Source: a virus
Length of the DNA: 23,992 nt
Direction: 5' to 3' (one strand)
Virus record (IMG/VR): IMGVR_UViG_3300009181_000337
Location: 1 to 23,992 of that record
Shown here: positions 6,700 through 22,369 of the stretch, piece after piece
Numbering within the stretch: the first letter of the stretch is position 1
Layout: each line of letters begins with the position of its first letter
The notes under the pieces: model-generated
The model's input: the letters and a program-made list of their open reading frames with translations, nothing else
Told to the model about the DNA's origin: nothing
Databases searched by the model: none
Translations under genes and position numbers: made by a program

Positions 6700-7320
6700 A
6701 TGGCAAATTCAGATGAAACAGTTGATAGACAGTCATTAGTCACCAGTCTAGCTGATAGATATAAAAATCAAAATATTGGTGGAGCTTATAATGCTAATAA
6801 AGCTGGTACATCTACATATCAAAATGATGATGCGGTATCTTCAAAATCCACAACATTTGATAATAACCCTGAATTTGTTGTAAAACAACAATTGGGAATC
6901 TCAAATTTTAAAGGAACGGAAGGGTTAAATTATAAAGAAATATCCGATTTATCACAAGGAGTAAAAACATCTACATATGGAGATTCTCAATTAGCAAGAA
7001 CATACGATAAAACCTCCGATTTCGTTAAAGGTCTTGAAAATGAAACAATGCAAGGTTCTAATTTTAAAGGCATATCCTCAATAGGAGGCAAGTATAAAGA
7101 AGTTTCTAAATATGGACAAAAAGTAGGAACTTCTACATATGCACCAGATACAAAGGATTTAAGTTATAATGCGACAAAATTTGATAAAACTCCAAAATTT
7201 TTTATAAAACAACCACTCAAAGTTACAAATTTTAAAGGTATTGATGGTAATAAAAGTTTAAAATACAATGAACTTTCAAGTTTATCCCAAGGGTTTAACA
7301 ATAACAAGTATAAACCTTAA
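6700..7320 (+). CDS. Small repeat protein, three-unit paralogue
   Basis: A 206-residue protein of unknown function. Residues 1-39 match the N-terminus of the preceding gene (VDRQSL.TSL, GGAYNANKAGTST). Three units follow at residues ~53-93, 102-147 and 161-206, each with a F/YD(N/K)(N/T)..F(V/F) start, a central (S/T)NFKG, then Y(K/N)E(I/V/L)S and an end in S/N-T/K-Y. The pair therefore differs by unit number (three versus one), suggesting gene duplication followed by expansion or contraction. It has no cysteines and no transmembrane or signal sequence. Its TAA overlaps the stop codon of the convergent nuclease gene. Expression is probably shared with the preceding gene, 12 bases upstream. 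The function cannot be assigned; a virion or assembly role is inferred from position. Confidence 0.72.
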   Translation: MANSDETVDRQSLVTSLADRYKNQNIGGAYNANKAGTSTYQNDDAVSSKSTTFDNNPEFVVKQQLGISNFKGTEGLNYKEISDLSQGVKTSTYGDSQLARTYDKTSDFVKGLENETMQGSNFKGISSIGGKYKEVSKYGQKVGTSTYAPDTKDLSYNATKFDKTPKFFIKQPLKVTNFKGIDGNKSLKYNELSSLSQGFNNNKYKP

Positions 7321-7718
7321 CTTTTTCTTATTCTAACTCGTCCTCCTACATATTCATTATAATAAGTTGCATCGTATAAGGCATTTGCTAATATAATTTG
7401 TTTCATTTCTTCATAACTTAAATCGGATTTACTTTTACACCAAGATAATATTTCAAATGAAAATTTATCTTTACCAATTTTTATAATATCTTCATTCAGT
7501 TGATTACAACTGCCAGTGTAAGATTTCCAATCGCTTTCCTTAGTACCTCTTCTTTTATTAGTTCTACCTTTTAATGGTTTTTTAGTAGTTTTGAATTTTA
7601 ATAATTTTTTACCAATATATTTTTTATTATTGACATTATTAATTATTTTATAAATAAAGCCTATTACATCTTCTGGGATATCTCCTTCACATTTCCAATG
7701 TCCATAATCAATTTGCAT
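7317..7718 (-). CDS. GIY-YIG family nuclease, probable homing-type endonuclease
   Basis: A 133-residue protein on the minus strand, the only minus-strand gene seen. Residues 20-36 give the GIY-YIG signature as GFIYKI...KKYIGKK. A basic stretch follows (K/R-rich, ~37-60), then SDWKSYTGS and a C-terminal half with EE at 103-104 that may hold the metal-binding glutamate. It resembles a compact single-domain GIY-YIG family common in T4-like phages (recalled from family knowledge), with no separate DNA-binding domain. Its stop overlaps the stop of the repeat protein on the other strand, and its start diverges from the primase across 70 bases. It may be a free-standing homing endonuclease. A repair or host-DNA degradation role cannot be excluded. 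Confidence 0.75.
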   Translation of the reverse strand: MQIDYGHWKCEGDIPEDVIGFIYKIINNVNNKKYIGKKLLKFKTTKKPLKGRTNKRRGTKESDWKSYTGSCNQLNEDIIKIGKDKFSFEILSWCKSKSDLSYEEMKQIILANALYDATYYNEYVGGRVRIRKS

Positions 7719-7788: not shown

Positions 7789-8733
7789 ATGAGTTTACAA
7801 CAAGACATAACATTATCAATGTTGAACAGATTATTACGTCAGACTCCTAGAATAAGAAAAGGTACTGACGCTGTATATTTCTGTCCAAAATGTCATCATT
7901 ATAAACGCAAACTTGAAATATCTTTAGTTACTGGCAAATATAATTGTTGGGTATGTGGGTTTTCTGGATTAAATTTTGGGTCATTATTAAAGAAATTAAA
8001 TGCACCGAGGGAATATTATGAATCAATTGGAGAAATTAAGAAAATAGCTCCTAAACACATATTAGAGAATTTATTTGAGGAACCTAAAGAAATTGAAGAA
8101 ATTCACAATTTACCAGAAGAGTTCCAACCTTTATACGATTCAAATTCAAAAAGTATACAAAGAAAACATGCTTTAAATTATTTAAAAAATAGAGGTGTTT
8201 CCGATATAGATTTATATAGATATAATATAGGATATTGTGAAACAGGTGATTATAAAAATAGAGTGGTAATTCCATCGTATGATATTAATGGCAATCTAAA
8301 TTTTTACAGTTGTCGAGATTTTTATGAATCCTCATGGTTAAAATATGTTAATTGTAAATTTAGTAAAGATATTGTGGGATTTGAAATGTTAACAAATTTC
8401 AATGAAGAAATTACATTAGTAGAAGGAGCATTTGATGCATTAGCCGTTAGAAAAAATGTTATACCATTATTTGGTAAAACATTGTCCAATATACTTAAAT
8501 TAAAATTATTGATATTTAGACCACCTGTGGTAAATGTTTTATTAGATAATGACGCATTGAAAGATGCTATTAAAATATGTGAATTCTTTATAAAGAATGA
8601 TATAAATACCAGATTGATATCCTTAAATGAAAAAGATGCCTCCGTCTTAGGATTTGAAAAAACTTGGCAATATATAAACAATGCAAAATTATTGAGTTTT
8701 GAAGAGTTGTTTAAGTTAAAAATAAATTTATGA
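7789..8733 (+). CDS. DNA primase with zinc ribbon and TOPRIM domain
   Basis: A 314-residue DnaG/T7-gp4-type primase that should make RNA primers for lagging-strand synthesis. It has an N-terminal zinc ribbon with C32-P-K-C35 followed by H36-H37, and C53-W-V-C56. It then has an RVVIPSYDINGNLNFYSCR segment (159-176) typical of the region leading into the TOPRIM fold. The TOPRIM motifs are LVEGAFDAL with E212 and LLDND with D253 and D255. No helicase domain follows, so the helicase must be encoded elsewhere, as with T4 gp61 and gp41. The length is close to that of T4 gp61 (about 340). The last four bases (ATGA) overlap the start of the next gene, indicating translational coupling with the recombination genes. 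Confidence 0.85.
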   Translation: MSLQQDITLSMLNRLLRQTPRIRKGTDAVYFCPKCHHYKRKLEISLVTGKYNCWVCGFSGLNFGSLLKKLNAPREYYESIGEIKKIAPKHILENLFEEPKEIEEIHNLPEEFQPLYDSNSKSIQRKHALNYLKNRGVSDIDLYRYNIGYCETGDYKNRVVIPSYDINGNLNFYSCRDFYESSWLKYVNCKFSKDIVGFEMLTNFNEEITLVEGAFDALAVRKNVIPLFGKTLSNILKLKLLIFRPPVVNVLLDNDALKDAIKICEFFIKNDINTRLISLNEKDASVLGFEKTWQYINNAKLLSFEELFKLKINL

Positions 8734-9437
8734 TTAGATTACAAAATACAATTAAGAACTTTACGAACGTATTACATATTGGTGATATCCATATAAGATT
8801 GATGCAACGACATCAAGAATATTTAGAAGCTTTTAAAAAATTATATAAAGCTATAGATAGGACTCCCGAAACTACTTTAATTATAGTTGCTGGGGATTTG
8901 TTTCATAATAAATCAGATTTAAGTCCAGAATCTATTCAATTGGCTGGAGATTTCTTAAAAAATTTAGCAGATAGACGACCTACTATATTAATTGCTGGTA
9001 ATCATGATGCTACATTAGCTAATAAAAACAGATTAGATAGTCTCAGTCCAATTGTTCAAGCATTAAATCATAATAACCTATATTATTTAAAAGATACCGA
9101 CATTTATATCATTGGAGATGTATTATTCAACAACTATTCTGTATTTGATGAACCTGATAAATATATTAAATATAAAGATATTCCAAGTATCTATAAAAAT
9201 GAGGTTAATTATAGTATAGCATTATTCCACGGTCCTGTAAACAACGCTATTACCGATATTGGATATATTGTTAGTAATAAAACTATTACTACTAGTATTT
9301 TTGATGGACATCAAATGGTAATGTTGGGTGACATACACAAACCACAAAATTTGACATTCGAAAGAGTTGTGTCCGAGGATGAAATTGATACTATAAATTT
9401 AAATGAATGGGAAATAATAGAGGAATTCACAAAATAA
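8730..9437 (+). CDS. 47: gp47-like Mre11/SbcD nuclease, N-terminal metallophosphoesterase part only
   Basis: A 235-residue protein with all calcineurin-like phosphoesterase motifs of the Mre11/SbcD family: GDIHI (D19, H21), GDLFHNK (D56), GNHDA (N91-H92-D93), FHGP (H167) and LGDIHKPQ (D201, H203). T4 gp47 is about 340 residues. Here the reading frame ends about 30 residues after GDIHKPQ, at TAA 9435-9437, and the expected continuation (RYVGSLIQQ and the capping domain) appears at the start of the next gene. With Rad50/gp46 it would resect DNA ends for recombination-dependent replication. The start ATG overlaps the primase stop. Either the two polypeptides assemble into a split enzyme, or this is a disrupted gene; the intact active site favours function. 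Confidence 0.82.
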   Translation: MIRLQNTIKNFTNVLHIGDIHIRLMQRHQEYLEAFKKLYKAIDRTPETTLIIVAGDLFHNKSDLSPESIQLAGDFLKNLADRRPTILIAGNHDATLANKNRLDSLSPIVQALNHNNLYYLKDTDIYIIGDVLFNNYSVFDEPDKYIKYKDIPSIYKNEVNYSIALFHGPVNNAITDIGYIVSNKTITTSIFDGHQMVMLGDIHKPQNLTFERVVSEDEIDTINLNEWEIIEEFTK

Positions 9438-9490
9438 CTGTGTTTTTGTTGAATTAGACACTATTTTGAAGAAATATTGAAAAAATTATT

Positions 9491-12067
9491 ATGAAATATT
9501 ATAAAATAAAAAAGAAAAATTTTCCGATTATTCGGTATGTAGGAAGCCTAATCCAACAAGATCATGGCGAAGCTCTAAATGGTCATGGATTCACATATTG
9601 GGACTTAAAAACCAAGAAATTCGTTCATGTAGAAATTCCAAACGATTATGGTTTTTATACTATCGAAGTCAATAAAGGTATTCTAAAGAGTGATATTTCA
9701 GATATTCCCAAAAAAGCTAAATTACGAATTAAGTGTATTGAAAGTATACCATCTGAAATTAAATCGGTATTAACTGAAGTGAGAAAGGTGTCGGATGTAA
9801 CAGATGTAAGTTATATAAAAATAGAAGAAAATACTGACATTAAGAATATAATTGATGCAACTGAAGTGAGTTTACAAGATGTTACGGATGTAGATTATCA
9901 AAATAATTTAATAAAAGATTACATCAAAGATAAAAAACTAAGTGTGGATGACAATTTATTGGGGTGTATTTTTGATTTAAATAAAGAATTGAATGAAGAA
10001 TTAAAAAAAGAACACTCCGTTAGAAATATACAATGGAAACCTAAAATATTTGAGTTTGATAATATGTTTAGTTATGGGGAAGGCAATATTATTGACTTTT
10101 CTAAAATGTCTGGCATCATGGGATTGTTTGCTAATAATGCTAGTGGTAAAAGCAGTATATTATCCGCATTGAGTTTTTGTTTATTTGATAAATGTGACAG
10201 AGCTTTTAAAGCCTCTCATGTTTTAAATACTCAAAAAATGAGTTTTAGATGCAAATTTAATTTTGAATTAAATGGAATAAACTATTTCATTGAAAGAAAA
10301 GGATTGTCCGATAAAAAAGGAAATGTTAAAGTTGATGTTAAATTTTGGAAAGTAGAGGATGATAAAGAAATTGAATTGAATGGCGAAGCAAGACGAAGTA
10401 CCAATGACATTATTAGAGATTATATTGGTGAGTATGGTGATTTTATTCTAACCGTATTGTCTATTCAAAATGGCAAAGATGGTAGTTTTATTGACATGGG
10501 TCAAACCGAAAGAAAGGATTTATTAGCTCAATTCATGGGATTGACTATATTTGACGGACTTTATAATTTGGCTTCTAAAAAGTATAATGAAGTATCTGTG
10601 TTATTAAAAAATCTCAATAATGGGGATTATACCATAAAGTTAAATCAAGTGACCAATGAAATTACAAAAATTGAAAATGACATTAAAATTCAAAATGAAA
10701 CTTTAGATAATACAATGTCAGATAAAGAAGAAAAAAATCAAAAATTGATTGAATTAACCAAACAATTAATTAATATAGATTCCAAAGTATCTGATATCAC
10801 ATCATTGGAAACACAAAAAATTAAGTGTGATTCCGAAATATCTAAATTGGAAAACGATGATATCGCTTATAAAAACGAAATCAAAGACATAGAAACTAAA
10901 TTGACCAATTTGGATAATGATATAAAAATATTAACAGATAAAGAGTTATCTATTAATTTGGAAAAATACAATTCTACCAAGAAGAACTATGATATATTAG
11001 AAAGAGACATTGAAAAAAGAAAAATTCTAATCAAAGGTAAATTAGATAAACTTTCTAAATTAGAAGAACATAAGTATGACCCAAATTGTGACTTTTGTAT
11101 TAATAACGTATTTGTTAAAGATGCAATAAAAACCAAGGAAGACTTGGAAAAAGATAAAAATGAAGTTATTCCATTAATGGATACTTTTAGAAATTATAAA
11201 AATGAGTTATCTTCTTTATCATGGGTATTGGAAGATGATAAGAAATTAAAATCATTAAATAACGAAAAATCTCAATCTACAGAAACTCATTCAAAATTAA
11301 ACAATACTATATTGAAGAATGAAAATAGTATAAATCAATATAAAAATAAATTGAGTATATTGGTAAAAGATATTGATGATTTTTATAAACAGAAAGATAA
11401 TATTGAAAATAATATCAAGATTAATCGAGATATTGCGGATATCAAGACTGTAATTAAAACTTTGGATTCTAATTATAAATCAATGAATAATCTTATAATT
11501 AAAGCCAATGGTAATCTACAAACTAAAATCAGTGAGAAGAATAATATAGAAGAACGAATCAAAAACATTAAAGACCTTGATATTAAAAATAATTGTTATA
11601 AAAATTATATTCAGATTATAAACCGTGATGGTATTCCTTATGAATTAATAACACAAGCCCTTCCATCTATAGAAAAGGAAGTAAATGATATATTACACCA
11701 AATAGTTGAATTTACGGTGTCGTTAAAGACTGACGGTAAAAATGTAAGTACTTATATCGTATACAATGATAAGAAATGGCCTCTAGAGATGGGTAGTGGA
11801 CTAGAGAAATTCATCAGTTCACTGGCAATAAGAGTAGCTTTAATTAATATATCAAATCTACCCAGACCTTCCTTTATGGCTATAGATGAGGGATTTGGTT
11901 GTGCGGATAAAGACAATTTGACTTCAATGACTAATTTATTCAGTTATCTCAAGACCAGATTTGATTTTATATGGATTATAAGTCATTTAGATGAAATGAG
12001 AGATATGGTGGATAAACATATAGAAATAAAAAAGGAAAATGGGTTCTCTAAGATAGTATTTAACTAA
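9491..12067 (+). CDS. 46: gp46-like Rad50/SbcC ATPase carrying the C-terminal part of gp47 at its N-terminus
   Basis: An 858-residue chimera. Residues 1-~90 are the end of an Mre11-like protein: IIRYVGSLIQQDHGE at 13-27 and EIPNDYGFYT at 48-57. From ~178 (RNIQWKPKIFEFDNMFSYGE) it is Rad50-like. Walker A is LFANNASGKSS (212-222). Long coiled coils flank a zinc hook with C533-D-F-C536. Near the C-terminus are the signature GSGLEKFISSLAIR, Walker B FMAIDEGFG and switch histidine IISHLDE. It should bind and tether DNA ends and drive the gp47 nuclease. A stop in this frame at 9467-9469 prevents an upstream extension reaching gp47, so the ATG at 9491 is the first good start. There is no Shine-Dalgarno. 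The next gene may overlap by one base. Confidence 0.85.
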   Translation: MKYYKIKKKNFPIIRYVGSLIQQDHGEALNGHGFTYWDLKTKKFVHVEIPNDYGFYTIEVNKGILKSDISDIPKKAKLRIKCIESIPSEIKSVLTEVRKVSDVTDVSYIKIEENTDIKNIIDATEVSLQDVTDVDYQNNLIKDYIKDKKLSVDDNLLGCIFDLNKELNEELKKEHSVRNIQWKPKIFEFDNMFSYGEGNIIDFSKMSGIMGLFANNASGKSSILSALSFCLFDKCDRAFKASHVLNTQKMSFRCKFNFELNGINYFIERKGLSDKKGNVKVDVKFWKVEDDKEIELNGEARRSTNDIIRDYIGEYGDFILTVLSIQNGKDGSFIDMGQTERKDLLAQFMGLTIFDGLYNLASKKYNEVSVLLKNLNNGDYTIKLNQVTNEITKIENDIKIQNETLDNTMSDKEEKNQKLIELTKQLINIDSKVSDITSLETQKIKCDSEISKLENDDIAYKNEIKDIETKLTNLDNDIKILTDKELSINLEKYNSTKKNYDILERDIEKRKILIKGKLDKLSKLEEHKYDPNCDFCINNVFVKDAIKTKEDLEKDKNEVIPLMDTFRNYKNELSSLSWVLEDDKKLKSLNNEKSQSTETHSKLNNTILKNENSINQYKNKLSILVKDIDDFYKQKDNIENNIKINRDIADIKTVIKTLDSNYKSMNNLIIKANGNLQTKISEKNNIEERIKNIKDLDIKNNCYKNYIQIINRDGIPYELITQALPSIEKEVNDILHQIVEFTVSLKTDGKNVSTYIVYNDKKWPLEMGSGLEKFISSLAIRVALINISNLPRPSFMAIDEGFGCADKDNLTSMTNLFSYLKTRFDFIWIISHLDEMRDMVDKHIEIKKENGFSKIVFN

Positions 12068-12073
12068 TGTTTA

Positions 12074-12087
12074 ACTATTTATATGAT
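12074..12087 (+). promoter_or_regulatory. Recurrent AT element (ACTATTTATATGAT) overlapping the 5' end of the fibre gene
   Basis: This element has the same ACTATTTAT core as those at 18891-18904 and 22380-22395. It ends three bases before the ATG at 12091. If it is an initiation signal, it favours 12091 over 12067 as the true start of the fibre-type gene, because the element would otherwise be coding sequence. Confidence 0.25.
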
Positions 12088-12090
12088 ACA

Positions 12091-14685
12091 ATGTCATATT
12101 TAATCGGAAAATCTTTAGGGTTAGAGTCAATGGTTGTTAATATAGAGGATACGTCGTATTTATCCACATATTTCAATATTACTGAATTTAATCCTGTTTT
12201 TGGGGCCGGCAAGAATTTATTAATAATTAATGCCACTTCATTATTATCTCCTAGTCCAAATATACAAATAGAAGCTAGGGATGGTAATAATAACTATTTA
12301 TACATTGAATCGGCTCAATTAGTTGATAAAGTATCCAATAAACAACAATATTATTATAGTTTATATGTATACGATAATCTTGTAGGTGGAACGGGTAAAA
12401 TAACCATAGTTGGTACAACCAAAGATAATAAAAAAGTAAGATGGTCATCTAACATAGCCATTTCTCCCACTTCAGAAAATAGATCCAAAATTGTATTTTT
12501 TAATAAACCTCAATTAAATGTTATACCTGTCATATCAAATGTATTAAGTTCATCAGTAGAAATTAACCCAAAAAGTATTCAGGGGTCATTTTCATCCACA
12601 GCTGTGACTCCACCTGTGAATTTTGATATCACAAACAATTATAATCCAAATAATGTTGATTATAGAATTATAGATAATACAAATCAGTTTGATGTAGGTA
12701 TGGAGAGTTTCCCTATAACTTTATATATAAATCAAATTAAAGCATTTAATTCATCTATAACACAAAATGTATCGGAGACTGCTAGTATTTTAGTAAAAAG
12801 AGTATTAAATCAAAATTCATTACTGTTAGCTGAACCTTACATATATCAAAACAATAAAATATCAGAAATCGTTAATGGTACATATATTTGCAAATTTAAT
12901 AACATTCAATATAAAAATGAATATTGGGATTCATCTAGTTATTCGACGCAATTTACAGATTTAAATGGAACAACTACTAGATTAGTAAAAAATTCTTATG
13001 CTTTGGTGGGGTACACCAATTTAAATACATTTTCAGGACTAATACAAAAACACAAAATATATAAAAAGAATTTATCTACGGCTGGAGATTTTGGATTAGT
13101 TACAGATGAAATATTTTCTAATTACGAATTATTAAAAGATGTAACTACTCCAAATAAAAGTTTTGAAAAACTTGGGTCATTTTTTACACAATTTCACATA
13201 AACAATTTTTGGTTCACCAGTTCCAATAATTTTAATTTATATCATGATGATGGTACATTTCTAAATGGAATGAATATATCTGGTAGTAATGTAGGTTCTG
13301 GATATATAATCACAAAACCCAATACATCATATACAAATAGAGATTCGGGATATATACCATTTGAAATTACTCAAAGTAATGATTTTTCTGGTAGTAGTTA
13401 TGATTCAAATTTTTTACATTTTTATCCAAATAGTAGATATACCCTCGAATTAAACGCAGCATTTTTAAATAAAAATATATCAGATACTTCCACTTTAAAT
13501 TTTTATATCACGAGTAGTTCACCAAATATTCAGAGAGAAACTGGGTACGATGTTAATAAAGGAATATTAATCGGAACATTGTCATTATCCGATTTAACTA
13601 CGACTAAAGTATATGATTCGATTCAATCATTTGATTTCAATTTTTTGAACGAAACGTATGGAACATTAGTAATATATGGTAATAATTTTACTTCGGCAAT
13701 ATTATCCAACATTTCTATAAAACCAACAAATGTATTTGGATTCTCAAATGATACATATTTCACCAAAGTACCATTTGATGTTAATAAACCCAATGATATT
13801 TTTGATATAAAATCCGAACTTTATGATAAAGATGGTAATCTAGCTTATAATAATTTAAATACCGTTCAGTATTTTGACCCTAACGGATTAACAACCCCAA
13901 TAACATTAGTTATCGGCACCACAATTACAGCCCAAATTTTAAGCGGTTCAACATTAATAGTAGATAATGCGTATATTACTAATAAAATAAGTGGGTCGAT
14001 AATTTCCAGTGATAGTGCAAGTTATTTAATTTATAGTCCTAATAATGGCACATCTTCGTATGCTATAAGTTCTAGTCGAGCTATTACGGCAAGTTATGCG
14101 TTGACAAGCCAAGGAACCGTTATTAACGCAATCACAGCAAGTTATTTAAATTACACTGGTGGTAATACTGGAACGGCTAGTTATGCTATTACCGCTAGTT
14201 ATTCAATGAATGGTGGTGGAGCGAGTAGTCAGTGGACAAATATTAGTGGTGGAGGAATTTATTATAATGGTGGTAATATTGGTATAGGTACATCAACTCC
14301 CGATAGTAAACTACAAGTTATTGGAAATATAAGTTGTAGTGTAATTACTGCATCTCTCGTTAATTTAAAAAATGCTGTATTGTTTGATTATAATAAGTCT
14401 ACGGCAAATACAGTGACAAATACTGTAATTGAAAATTTAACACAGTCGTATAATTCAGCATTTTTTGATTATGTTGTAATAAATGATGTTAATTTAAGAG
14501 CCGGCACAATATTATGTGCATTTACAGGAAGCAATATAACTTATACCGAATATTCCACTACCGATATTGGAGTTACAAGTGATATAACAATGTCCGTAGA
14601 TTTAAATAATTCTAATATAAGACTGTTATCTACTATACCATTTGGTCAAACTTGGGATATTAAAGCTTTTGGTAGATATTTATAA
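12091..14685 (+). CDS. Tail fibre/baseplate-type virion protein
   Basis: About 864 residues from the ATG at 12091. An alternative ATG at 12067, overlapping the gp46 stop, would add eight residues. The N-terminal region (FNITEF near residue 30, KNLLIINAT, IQIEARDGNNNYLYIE) resembles long structural proteins of environmental T4-like phages. The C-terminal region has an ASYAITASY-rich repeat (14010-14210) and then NIGIGTSTPDSKLQVIGNI (14275-14331), a motif of phage tail fibres and bacterial adhesins that often precedes a chaperone domain. No S74-type chaperone domain follows here. It is probably part of a fibre or baseplate (inference). The end is TAA, followed by a 101-base gap. Confidence 0.7.
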   Translation: MSYLIGKSLGLESMVVNIEDTSYLSTYFNITEFNPVFGAGKNLLIINATSLLSPSPNIQIEARDGNNNYLYIESAQLVDKVSNKQQYYYSLYVYDNLVGGTGKITIVGTTKDNKKVRWSSNIAISPTSENRSKIVFFNKPQLNVIPVISNVLSSSVEINPKSIQGSFSSTAVTPPVNFDITNNYNPNNVDYRIIDNTNQFDVGMESFPITLYINQIKAFNSSITQNVSETASILVKRVLNQNSLLLAEPYIYQNNKISEIVNGTYICKFNNIQYKNEYWDSSSYSTQFTDLNGTTTRLVKNSYALVGYTNLNTFSGLIQKHKIYKKNLSTAGDFGLVTDEIFSNYELLKDVTTPNKSFEKLGSFFTQFHINNFWFTSSNNFNLYHDDGTFLNGMNISGSNVGSGYIITKPNTSYTNRDSGYIPFEITQSNDFSGSSYDSNFLHFYPNSRYTLELNAAFLNKNISDTSTLNFYITSSSPNIQRETGYDVNKGILIGTLSLSDLTTTKVYDSIQSFDFNFLNETYGTLVIYGNNFTSAILSNISIKPTNVFGFSNDTYFTKVPFDVNKPNDIFDIKSELYDKDGNLAYNNLNTVQYFDPNGLTTPITLVIGTTITAQILSGSTLIVDNAYITNKISGSIISSDSASYLIYSPNNGTSSYAISSSRAITASYALTSQGTVINAITASYLNYTGGNTGTASYAITASYSMNGGGASSQWTNISGGGIYYNGGNIGIGTSTPDSKLQVIGNISCSVITASLVNLKNAVLFDYNKSTANTVTNTVIENLTQSYNSAFFDYVVINDVNLRAGTILCAFTGSNITYTEYSTTDIGVTSDITMSVDLNNSNIRLLSTIPFGQTWDIKAFGRYL
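14010..14210 (+). repeat. ASY/ITASY coding repeat in fibre-type protein
   Basis: The encoded protein repeats (A/S)SY about every 4 to 17 residues (SASYLIY, TSSYAIS, ITASYAL, ITASYLN, GTASYAITASYS). At the DNA level this gives recurrent GCAAGTTAT/GCTAGTTAT. Such ITASYA repeats are typical of beta-helical or trimeric fibre shafts. Repeat number may vary between relatives. Confidence 0.6.
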
Positions 14686-18904: not shown

Positions 18905-20758
18905 ATGAATAAATTATCAGAATATCTTTTTAATGAAATATACCCTGTTATTTCGGAAAAATTGACACTATTGTTTGAGGGTGGTAATGTATTTGATGAC
19001 ACTATTTCAATAAAAAAAGAATATATATCAAATACATTGAATGCTTTTAAAATAGAATTCAGTAAATATTTTCCATCTATATTAGAAGGATATAGAACAT
19101 TAGGTAGTGTTGGAAAGAAAAATCTTTCAGGTGATATAGATTTGGCAATAAGTTCAAAAACACTTTTTAATGATGATGGTACTCCAAAATTAAATGAACT
19201 TAATATCGATGAAAAACAATATAAAGATGTATTTGATAAATATAAAAGTAAATCACGAAGTGCTACGGAAGAAATGTTAATGCTTCGATCAGTTTTATTT
19301 TTTATAGCCAAGAGAATAAATGAATACTCAAAAGATTTAACCGTAGATGATAAAGGAAGTAGTGCAGGTACATTATTTTGTAAATTTCCACAGTTTGATG
19401 ATAAAGGTAAAAAAACAAATGATTTTGTTCAAATAGATTTAAATTTTGGAAATTTGGATTGGTTGACATTTTCATATTATTCAGATGTATATAAAGATAA
19501 TGTAAAAGGTTTACATAGAACACAATTAATGTTATCTTTATTTTCAGATGCTGGTTATATATTTAGTCATAATTATGGAGTTAAAAACAAAGAAACTGGT
19601 CAGATAGTTGCTACAAATCCAAACGAAGCTATTTCTTTATTGAATAAAATTTATGGATTTTCTATCAATACCGATATATTAAGTAATTATTTTAAATTAC
19701 AAGAATTTTTAAAAAATAATCTTGATATCGCAAAATATAATAGCATTATTGATAAATATATAAAAATTTTAGATTCTACAAGAGCCGATATCCCAATTGA
19801 TTTACAAGATTACTGGATTGCTAATAAAGAAAGATTAGCCTTAAAGGGTAAATTTTTGCCAGACGATTCTAATTTAATTAAATACCAAAAATTAAATGAA
19901 TCAGGAGCTGCTGGTGCTTCTAGAATACCGAGATCTGCGGTAGAACCTACATTCAAATCTTATATTGAAAAAGTATTAAAAAAATTCCCAGCATTCAAGG
20001 GTGCTAAAATATCAGGGTCTTATAACACGGTTGTAAAATCAGATCACGGTGATATAGATTTAATAATTCATATAGACAGAACTGATATTAGTATAAAAGA
20101 ATTAAAAGAAATGTTTAGAAATCATATAAATTCTCTTCCTGATAGTGTATCTGTGCCATTTTCTTCTGGTAAATATGTTGGAAAAAAATCAATGATTGCT
20201 GGTGAAATAGTTATAGTTAATTTCCCAATAGAAGGTTTGTCTGGATTAACAGTTCAAATTGATAATATAATTACGACATCTGAGACGGAAAGTGAATATA
20301 GAAAAACTTTTTTAGATATGCCTGCCGAAAAACAAGGTTTATTAATAGGTCTTGCTAAAGCAATATTATTGGAAGAAGATGTTAAAGATGTATTTAAACG
20401 ACTTGGTATTACAAATATTCCTGATTTAAAAGAAAATCAAGAATACGAATTTAATCTATCAACACAAGGATTATCTTTACGTATAGTAACCTTAGATTCA
20501 AATTTCAAACAATTAGATAGAAAAGAAATATGGTCTTCGTTTAATTGGAATGATTCTAAAAAATTATTTAAAAATTTTAATATTGATGGGTCATTTGAAG
20601 ATATGTTAAAAGATTTCAAATCAAAATTAAAAAATCCTAGATCTTTAAATAGAATTAAGGGACTTTTTAAATCAATGGTACATGTTACTTCCGGTGAAAT
20701 TGGCACCCCAAAAGGTGACAATAAATTAAAAGCCATAGAGATGGTTAATTCGTTATAA
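18905..20758 (+). CDS. Tandem nucleotidyltransferase-fold protein
   Basis: A 617-residue protein with two DNA-polymerase-beta-type nucleotidyltransferase sites. Site 1: LGSVGKKNLSGDIDLAIS, with G67-S68, D77 and D79, and a third carboxylate in VQIDLNFGN (D178). Site 2: ISGSYNTVV...HGDIDLIIHID, with G371-S372, D383 and D385, and VQIDNI (D453). Both triads look complete. The first domain, with its downstream TFSYYSD...KGLHRTQL, resembles a nucleotidyltransferase-like family I recall from phages. The substrate is unknown: transfer of a nucleotide to RNA, protein or a small molecule are all open. The gene sits 24 bases after the zinc-ribbon gene and 6 bases before the terminase, so it is probably co-expressed with packaging genes. 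No toxin or antitoxin partner is obvious. Confidence 0.75.
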   Translation: MNKLSEYLFNEIYPVISEKLTLLFEGGNVFDDTISIKKEYISNTLNAFKIEFSKYFPSILEGYRTLGSVGKKNLSGDIDLAISSKTLFNDDGTPKLNELNIDEKQYKDVFDKYKSKSRSATEEMLMLRSVLFFIAKRINEYSKDLTVDDKGSSAGTLFCKFPQFDDKGKKTNDFVQIDLNFGNLDWLTFSYYSDVYKDNVKGLHRTQLMLSLFSDAGYIFSHNYGVKNKETGQIVATNPNEAISLLNKIYGFSINTDILSNYFKLQEFLKNNLDIAKYNSIIDKYIKILDSTRADIPIDLQDYWIANKERLALKGKFLPDDSNLIKYQKLNESGAAGASRIPRSAVEPTFKSYIEKVLKKFPAFKGAKISGSYNTVVKSDHGDIDLIIHIDRTDISIKELKEMFRNHINSLPDSVSVPFSSGKYVGKKSMIAGEIVIVNFPIEGLSGLTVQIDNIITTSETESEYRKTFLDMPAEKQGLLIGLAKAILLEEDVKDVFKRLGITNIPDLKENQEYEFNLSTQGLSLRIVTLDSNFKQLDRKEIWSSFNWNDSKKLFKNFNIDGSFEDMLKDFKSKLKNPRSLNRIKGLFKSMVHVTSGEIGTPKGDNKLKAIEMVNSL

Positions 20759-20764
20759 AAATTC

Positions 20765-22369
20765 ATGGCACAGGAAAATAAAAATATCAGAGAAGTTATA
20801 AAAGAAGAATACAAGAAATGTTTCTTGAATCCAATGTATTTTATGAAAAAATATGTTAAGATTCAACATCAAACAAGAGGAATAATTCCCTTTGAATTGT
20901 ATGAATTTCAAGAACATACATTAGATGATTTTATTAAAAACGATAGAAATATTGTTTTAAAATCAAGACAGATGGGTATTAGTACATTGGTATCCGCATA
21001 TTCTTTATGGACAATGATATTTAATCCCGGCAAAAACGTATTAATTTTATCCACAGTTCAAAATACATCTAAAGAAATTGTTTCCAAAATTCGTTTGGCA
21101 AATAATAATCTTCCTAGTTGGTTAAAAGTTCCTACAGTAGAAGACAATAGATTATCATTGAAATTGAAGAATGAATCAAGAGTATTAGCCGCATCTTCTG
21201 CGGCAGATAGTTCTCGTGGTTTCAGTTCCTATCTATTGGTAATGGATGAATGTGCATTTATCGAAAATGCTGAAGAAGTTTGGACATCGGCTCAACAAAC
21301 CATGGCAACTGGCGGTAGAGCTGTTTTACTTTCTACTCCAAATGGTGTCGGTAATTTTTTTCATAAGATGTGGGTTGATGCGGAAGCCAAAAAAAATAGT
21401 TTCAAAACAATTAATTTAAGATGGAGTTTACATCCAGAAAGAAATCAAATATGGCGTGACAGACAGACCGCAGAGTTAGGTGTCAAACGTGCAGCCCAAG
21501 AATGTGATTGTGAGTTTTTATCATCTGGTAATACAGTTATTGAACAGAATTTAATAGAAGAATATAAAAAGTTAACAATGGAGCCAATTGAAACTAGGGG
21601 AAGTGACCATAGTTTTTGGATATGGGAAAGACCTGATTATAGTAAAAATTATCTAATAAGTGCCGACGTAGCCAGAGGTGACGGTAATGATTATAGTGCT
21701 TTTCAAGTAATTGAACCCGAATCTTTAACTCAAGTAGCTGAATTTAAGGGTGCAATTGGGACAAAAGAATTTGGTAATATGTTGGTTTCCGTGGCTACTG
21801 AATATAACAATGCATTATTAATTGTTGAAAATGCTTCATATGGATGGGCGGTATTACAACAAATAATAGACAGAAATTATGTTAATTTGTTTTATAGTAG
21901 CACCGACATGCAATATGTTGATGTAGAACAACAAATGACTAATAAGTTAAATCATCAAGATAAAAATTTGGTGCCAGGTTTTACCAATAGCACCAAAACC
22001 AGACCATTGACTATAGCTAAAATGGACACTTTAATGCGTGAAAAAGGTGTTACTATAAGGTCCAATAGATTTTTAGATGAATTGAGTGTTTTTATATGGA
22101 ATAATGGTAAAGCAGAGGCAATGCGTAGTTATAACGATGATTTAATTATAAGTATGTGTATAGGATTATGGACACGAGACACTGCTATTAGATTAAGATT
22201 ACAAACTATGGATGTTAATAGAGTATTATTAACAGGAATTAAAAAAACTGGTGATATTAAAGGTGAAACTATGGCCGATATAAATCATAGAGATAAAGCC
22301 GCAAAATCATGGACATTTGATACATCCAAAACAAATGCTAAAAAGGAGAATTTAAACTGGTTATTATAA
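20765..22369 (+). CDS. 17: Terminase large subunit (gp17-like)
   Basis: A 534-residue packaging motor and nuclease. ATPase motifs: a P-loop-like KSRQMGIST (66-74), Walker B LLVMDE (157-162, D161/E162) and the coupling motif LSTPNG (189-194). The RNase H-like nuclease domain has SADVARGDGNDYS (D301), IVENASYG (E355) and YNDDLI (D458/D459). Relative to T4's SRQLGKTT, the P-loop lysine position is isoleucine; I believe related phage terminases share this. It should pump DNA through the portal encoded just downstream and cut concatemers. The start is six bases after the upstream stop, with no Shine-Dalgarno, implying translational coupling. It is somewhat shorter than T4 gp17 (610 residues). A small terminase gene was not identified in the window. 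Confidence 0.95.
   Translation: MAQENKNIREVIKEEYKKCFLNPMYFMKKYVKIQHQTRGIIPFELYEFQEHTLDDFIKNDRNIVLKSRQMGISTLVSAYSLWTMIFNPGKNVLILSTVQNTSKEIVSKIRLANNNLPSWLKVPTVEDNRLSLKLKNESRVLAASSAADSSRGFSSYLLVMDECAFIENAEEVWTSAQQTMATGGRAVLLSTPNGVGNFFHKMWVDAEAKKNSFKTINLRWSLHPERNQIWRDRQTAELGVKRAAQECDCEFLSSGNTVIEQNLIEEYKKLTMEPIETRGSDHSFWIWERPDYSKNYLISADVARGDGNDYSAFQVIEPESLTQVAEFKGAIGTKEFGNMLVSVATEYNNALLIVENASYGWAVLQQIIDRNYVNLFYSSTDMQYVDVEQQMTNKLNHQDKNLVPGFTNSTKTRPLTIAKMDTLMREKGVTIRSNRFLDELSVFIWNNGKAEAMRSYNDDLIISMCIGLWTRDTAIRLRLQTMDVNRVLLTGIKKTGDIKGETMADINHRDKAAKSWTFDTSKTNAKKENLNWLL

Follow-up and report, generated by a model that had tools for sequence, protein, structure and literature searches.

A homing-endonuclease element as the probable cause of a split Mre11-Rad50 gene in a virus contig

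Introduction

Fusions of Mre11 to Rad50 are known in aquatic viruses, and the products of Mimivirus R555 and its relatives exemplify the kind of unsplit ancestor that concerns us here (PMC3175470). The window analysed in this study—an IMG/VR virus contig, 23,992 bp long with 30% G+C—differs from the R555 type in that its fusion is broken inside Mre11. How did the gene come to be broken at this point, what are the residues that flank the break, and what becomes of the two products? The answers matter beyond one contig: Mre11-Rad50 is studied in all domains of life, and natural split points with small docking tags would be of use there.

Layout of the split locus

The first gene of the pair, gene A (8730..9437, + strand), encodes a 235-aa Mre11/SbcD-type nuclease core that ends in an acidic tail. 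Its metal-site motifs are all present (DIH, GD, GNHD, H and GDIH), the residues D19, H21, D56, N91, H92, H167 and H203 are invariant in the alignment, and the chain matches Metallophos (PF00149, E=1.2e-15) and the PHROGs SbcD family (phrog_100, E=9e-21); phosphoesterase motifs and fold together, by Pfam, PHROGs, alignment and Foldseek, identify an Mre11/SbcD nuclease. The A tail (9348..9434, +), recognised from homologous tails, dN/dS and hhalign, consists of 29 residues, NLTFERVVSEDEIDTINLNEWEIIEEFTK, with a net charge of -7; the first ~5 overlap a strand of the old hairpin, and the remainder is element-derived. A stop codon (9435-9437, +) and a 53-nt spacer (9438..9490), the place of an endonuclease gene in relatives, separate it from gene B.

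Gene B (9491..12067, +; 858 aa) holds the rest of Mre11, namely the last core strands and the capping domain, fused to Rad50/SbcC (phrog_77, E=1.5e-36). It opens with a basic N-terminal extension of 11 codons, MKYYKIKKKNF (9491..9523, +; net charge +5), followed by the Mre11 continuation PIIRYVGSLIQQDHGE... (9524..10060, +), which comprises the strand, the capping domain and the linker to Rad50; the 3' boundary of this segment, drawn from Foldseek and an AF2 model of the fused relative L003, is approximate. The Rad50 part carries a Walker A region, GLFANNASGKSS (10121..10156, +), the CxxC zinc-hook motif CDFC (11087..11098, +), and a Walker B region around MAIDEGFG (11867..11899, +) with a weak match to PF13558 (SbcC Walker B). 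By sequence the catalytic motifs are intact on both chains.

The original prediction had assigned the Mre11 core to gene A and the remainder of Mre11 with Rad50 to gene B, and ORFs, Pfam and PHROGs agree on this division. It had also put the two halves of the junction 176 bases apart, which is not a multiple of three; the last base of GDIHKPQ is indeed 9347 and the first of PIIRYVGS 9524, with the ORFs in different frames. These 176 bases are mostly coding, being made up of the 29-codon A tail, the stop, the 53-nt spacer and the 11-codon B tail. In the AF2 model of the L003 Mre11 region (mean pLDDT 78, ~90 around the site; best Foldseek match to Mre11 structures E=5e-13), the break position falls in a hairpin loop between strands 206-209 and 219-222, right after the last metal-site motif.

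An ancestral fusion, repeatedly broken

A search of IMG/VR with A and B gave 104 loci. Wherever one of these spans the junction, both halves lie in a single ORF, except in the window, L024 and L033. The fused relatives have a short loop at the break site, as in L003 (GDIHRHQ-VLQQYDDINDK-PAIVYCGS), the nearest relative of the window with 84% identity in A and 73% in B. Close relatives (L003 and most others) thus show the uninterrupted gene at the same place, as is expected of a gene split by a homing endonuclease; both domains share one chain in the unsplit relatives, whereas in the window the core stands apart in A. Because the close relatives retrieved, the nearest included, are single ORFs apart from L024 and L033, the fusion is taken to be ancestral and the break secondary. 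The original prediction had left two origins side by side, the splitting of an ancestral gp47-gp46 fusion or a break and a fusion that arose separately, and had proposed a search for full-length fusions and for the same split; both exist among the relatives, which bears out the first origin and speaks against the second.

Recurrence of the break at the same site is equally clear from the sequences. It is found in L024, L033 and the metagenomic huge-phage record LR756508, and again in a second Mre11 clade (L128, L134, L135, L145, L141/142, L152, L170 and L193). On a Mre11 tree of 111 rows, 12 changes are needed to account for the interrupted state; the fusion clade needs four for the split state, and an AU test rejects the idea that the breaks of the window, L024 and L033 share one origin (p=8e-7). 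In the second clade (L128, L134, L135) the second half is only ~75 aa long and is not fused to Rad50; the target is therefore the Mre11 site itself. Relatives of L134, L135 and L128 amount to 64 intact and 13 split loci, counted by contig with near-duplicates included and with L163 and L164 among the intact although they are re-fused. Bacterial genome contigs searched with chain A held no relative, and a search of literature outside the primary papers of Friedrich, Crona and Dassa gave no account of a phage Mre11 split in this way.

An indel that restores one frame, which the original prediction had entertained, is unlikely, for the same arrangement with conserved tails occurs in independent contigs. 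Sequencing or assembly error is ruled out on the same grounds: the window boundary recurs with homologous tails in L024, L033, L128, L134, L135, L145, L152, L170, L193 and LR756508. What the original prediction overlooked is that the break is, judging from these relatives, a site-specific homing-endonuclease insertion minus its nuclease, sporadic in many phages, and that the residues beside it are evidently homologous tails brought by the element instead of Mre11 leftovers.

Two further loci deserve mention. Along L024:5400-8400 the nearest fused allele shifts, being L037/L096-like upstream of the break and L085- or L031-like downstream, which suggests mosaic recombination around the insertion. 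L015:6628-9085 is fused at Mre11 and broken again in its Rad50 part (the ORF ends at 8289 and the match resumes at 8324); either one more interruption or an error may account for this.

The tails as conserved parts of the element

Split genes bear homologous additions on both sides of the break. Gene A has an acidic tail of ~24 residues at its C-terminus and gene B a basic one of ~10 residues at its N-terminus; across the split loci the lengths range over 24-34 and 10-12 residues respectively. The A tails of the window, L024 and L033 read ERVVSEDEIDTINLNEWEIIEEF, EIVVSEEELMKLDLNEWEIVEEI and EKTISENEIENVNFNEWEIIEEF, and the matching B extensions MKYYKIKKK, MKKYVVRKK and MKYYKLRKK. Homologous A tails are found in 12 split lineages under the pattern x-[VI]-x-E-x-[ED]-[IL]-...-[GE]-W-x-[ILM], and the B tails are similar in all split lineages (consensus M..KIKIKKxxP). 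Window-type and endonuclease-type A tails align by hhalign with E=1.6e-4 and a probability of 50% over 24 columns, the sequences being short.

All 12 A tails listed have a net charge of -4 to -10 and all 11 B tails listed one of +2 to +6; the tails are related, so that charge counts as one conserved property and does not imply independent trials. For background, the loci contain 1,089 ORFs, of which 9% have a C-terminal 28-mer at or below -4 and 2% an N-terminal 11-mer at or above +4.

Across the three diverged fusion-clade phages (window, L024, L033) the A tail has pN 0.16-0.30 and pS 0.57-0.69, or dN 0.19-0.38 and dS 1.1-1.9. The resulting dN/dS of about 0.14-0.32 means that the tail is selected as protein; for the gene A core, compared with L003, dN is 0.10 and dS 1.27. 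Some second-clade tail pairs have dN/dS near 1, chiefly those with the re-fused L163 and over stretches of only 20 codons; in the L163 pairs this may reflect relaxed constraint after re-fusion. On the whole the tails are under purifying selection.

Tail-only DNA patterns scanned against 2.9 million IMG/VR contigs led back to the same gene. The first pattern returned four contigs, L024, L033, L128 and L127 (an unrelated ORF), and the second returned L128, L134 and L135; five of the six contigs are split Mre11. A tblastn search of the phage collection with the tails alone, queries that are too short, returned only the parent record.

The endonuclease and the mobility of the element

An intact endonuclease ORF lies between the tailed halves in five lineages (LR756508, L128, L134, L135 and L145). 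LR756508 has the same break and tails with a 305-aa ORF in between, in which Cys-rich zinc-finger-like segments precede a TnsA-like nuclease domain (PF08722, E=6e-6); the distant Mre11 of L128, broken at this site too, has a 293-aa endonuclease ORF between its halves. Two nuclease types thus occupy one site, TnsA-like or restriction-type in LR756508, L128 and L134 and Vsr-like in L145, although the Pfam matches are weak for L128, L134 and L145. Scans queried with the endonuclease mostly found other zinc-finger nucleases in unrelated contexts. The nucleases at L145:3724-4638 (Vsr-like) and L134:196-1077 (- strand; TnsA/restriction-like) have similar Cys-rich N-termini and the same kind of tails, which suggests an exchange of nuclease domains within the element.

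Co-movement of tails and endonuclease is apparent from L134 and L135. The two are 98.1% identical over ~1.08 kb, from GDIHK through the A tail, the endonuclease and the B tail to ~VY.GSLIQQ, with sharp edges; in the Mre11 flanks identity is ~0.4-0.8 per 50 columns, mostly 0.6-0.7 (~65%). Near-identity inside and divergence outside mean that tails and endonuclease travel as one element, and that it has moved laterally between alleles of these relatives of the window copy. In the reverse complement of L134 the endonuclease runs to 9383 and B starts at 9367, within the 3' end of the endonuclease; deletion of the nuclease therefore tends to keep the B tail.

Decay, loss and re-fusion

The element is found in several states, among which sequence comparison makes decay and loss of the nuclease, and one re-fusion, plain. 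The endonuclease is intact in L134, L135, L128, L145-147 and probably L180, where the contig ends. In L141 only its N-terminal zinc-finger stretch is left, in frame with B, and in L142/L155 its C-terminal half. The nuclease is gone and the tails are kept in L152/L154 (7 nt from the stop to the end of the B start codon), L170 and L193, and in the other clade in the window, L024 and L033. Spacers without the nuclease range from 7 to 130 nt; those of L170 and L193 still encode the nuclease C-terminus (p~0.002 each), L024 has a marginal remnant (p~0.06), and the window spacer, tested twice for a nuclease remnant, gave none significant (p~0.58).

The window, with a 53-nt spacer in place of the endonuclease ORF, is filed as a nuclease-less derivative; the homology of its tails, site and context, in place of a nuclease remnant of its own, ties it to the endonuclease element. 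Re-fusion is found on two separate contigs, L163:3001-3906 and L164:3001-3906, as one 302-aa ORF reading GDIHKRQIFIHKQTMEVDKENLERYIKIGWVVDDDKNSAKINIKKVIPICYSGSLIQQ, in which the tail pair is retained as an in-frame insert of ~40 residues. In L163 tail A and tail B are separated by just six residues, DDKNSA, a short link which suggests that the ends of the two tails lie close together.

Competing explanations

Could the break be mere decay, in which a frameshift or insertion broke an unneeded gene and the tails are random read-through? The halves do lie in different frames across a short AT-rich spacer, and several relatives without the nuclease look degenerate at first sight. However, the catalytic and Walker motifs are all intact, the A core is under purifying selection (the dN and dS against L003 given above), and at the protein level the tails have been conserved among three diverged phages of the fusion clade as well as in the second clade; we regard decay as very improbable. 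A small group I intron or translational bypassing, either of which would restore one continuous protein, is more doubtful still. Gene-splitting phage introns of ~206 nt have been described (PMC12363816), not far in size from the 176-nt insert, but Rfam gave no intron match at the curated threshold in 13 sequences (the window, L024, L033, LR756508, L128 and eight others, all of them split or re-fused) and nothing relevant over the junction at a relaxed threshold. The fold of the insert is no more stable than those of shuffled versions (z=+0.7), so that by both Rfam thresholds and RNA folding it has no conserved catalytic RNA core; most of it is conserved coding tail, spacer length differs among loci, and L163, re-fused in frame, retains the tails.

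Dassa is said to have described, in 2009, fractured genes with split inteins and Vsr-like endonucleases. Such a gene, its product restored by protein trans-splicing, would resemble our locus in the free-standing endonuclease between the halves, one type of which (that of L145) is Vsr-like. Here, however, there are no intein halves and the tails allow no splicing chemistry: at 24-34 and 10-12 residues (29 and 11 in the window) they are far below the length of an intein half, and they include neither an N-intein that starts with Cys, Ser or Ala nor the HN of a C-intein. Pfam found no intein domain in A, while the real intein of L078 scored, and no intein sequence matched at the window junction; a split intein is so improbable as hardly to count. 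The least improbable of these alternatives, though still a poor prospect, is that both chains are made and never reassemble, A working as a phosphoesterase of its own and B, unaided, as a Rad50-like ATPase. Each ORF is intact and could be translated independently, but in B the Mre11 core strand and the cap still follow the break immediately, the second-clade B of ~75 aa is kept without any Rad50, and the complementary tails are conserved.

A model for the split and its precedents

We consider it quite probable that a homing-endonuclease element split an ancestral Mre11-Rad50 gene, that the window lineage lost the nuclease, and that the tails now dock the chains, docking being our own deduction. 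A single fusion gene would have been invaded by a site-specific element, neither intron nor intein, at a surface beta-hairpin that directly follows the last metal-binding motif (GDIHK..Q | ..P.I.Y.GS.IQQ), and the endonuclease would presumably cut the empty site. Two short coding tails would come with the element, an acidic one that ends the first half and a basic one that restarts the second, the endonuclease gene sitting between the two; with that gene lost, the window would have been left with the tails and the 53-nt spacer.

Both chains are presumably expressed. The two-chain complex that the original prediction expected would be a natural consequence of the split: chain A, the nuclease core, would most likely dock onto chain B, with its core strands, cap and Rad50, through the hairpin and tails, into what we expect to be an active complex. 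The tails would prolong the old hairpin on either side with opposite charges, and it is plausible from the model that they extend both strands outward and pair, acidic A with basic B. AF2 of chain A alone gave a good core with the tail as a short low-confidence helix, which speaks neither for nor against docking.

Assembly of A and B is credible because of a precedent in Aeromonas phage Aeh1, nrdA-a / mobE / nrdA-b, whose primary descriptions (Friedrich 2007, Crona 2011) we take from the accounts in PMC2988022, PMC3653736 and PMC3267527. There an essential gene is divided by a free-standing homing endonuclease, with neither an intron nor an intein involved, and the halves have short non-native tails. 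By these accounts the NrdA split by mobE is active (PMC2988022), its (alpha-a + alpha-b)2 beta2 complex is described (PMC3267527), and Crona 2011 is cited for interaction domains derived from the mobile element (PMC3267527). The extra tails, ..KKEKMLFKVKKSEVDKFKLMVATDQYKSLRY and MIEHERIYEVYEDEEYTT.., have opposite charges in the same layout, with the polarity reversed relative to Mre11: in Aeh1 A is basic and B acidic.

The two systems also differ. In Aeh1 the host gene is another one, the tails are non-homologous to ours, and mobE is an HNH nuclease; the Mre11 element, unlike that of Aeh1, occupies one site across many lineages, comes with either of two nuclease types, and has cases both of nuclease loss and of re-fusion. 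The Aeh1 enzyme stays active though split, by the accounts cited above. A further likeness comes from Aeromonas phages 25 and 44RR, in which DNA polymerase is split into 43A and 43B, and the chains co-purify and are active (PMC2988022). As with Mre11 here, the split occurs with or without an endonuclease present (PMC2988022); the gene is a different one, and the comparison concerns the split alone, not tails.

Aeh1 NrdA is one biochemical case suggesting that a homing endonuclease supplies interaction tails, and the same logic would here be recurrent and mobile in one repair gene. It seems fairly likely that homing endonucleases have a third harmless entry into essential genes, besides introns and inteins, in which their own oppositely charged tails re-join the host protein non-covalently; the tails would be conserved parts of the element that go with different nuclease types, outlast the nuclease and may become a permanent mini-domain on re-fusion. 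Empty, nuclease-bearing, decaying, nuclease-less and re-fused states are all found in nature, and the life cycle of a non-splicing homing element, together with the way in which one gene can give rise to obligate two-chain enzymes, becomes directly testable.

Neighbouring observations

The fused relative L078, on a 304-kb contig, has an in-frame LAGLIDADG intein in Mre11 at GNHD|C (L078:4774-6500; Intein_splicing E=1e-8, slightly short of the Pfam cut-off), so that this gene has a second parasite of another kind. In the window itself, a 133-aa SegE-like GIY-YIG free-standing homing endonuclease (7317-7718, - strand; PF19835, E=1e-33) adjoins the DnaG-type primase gene that precedes Mre11. On the other side, the start codon of a large tail-fibre-like protein with GTASYAITASYS-type repeats (12067-14685) overlaps the gene B stop. 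Farther along, a protein with a weak match to the DNA polymerase beta palm (18905-20758; PF14792, E=7e-6) is directly followed by a T4-type large terminase (20765-22369; PF03237).
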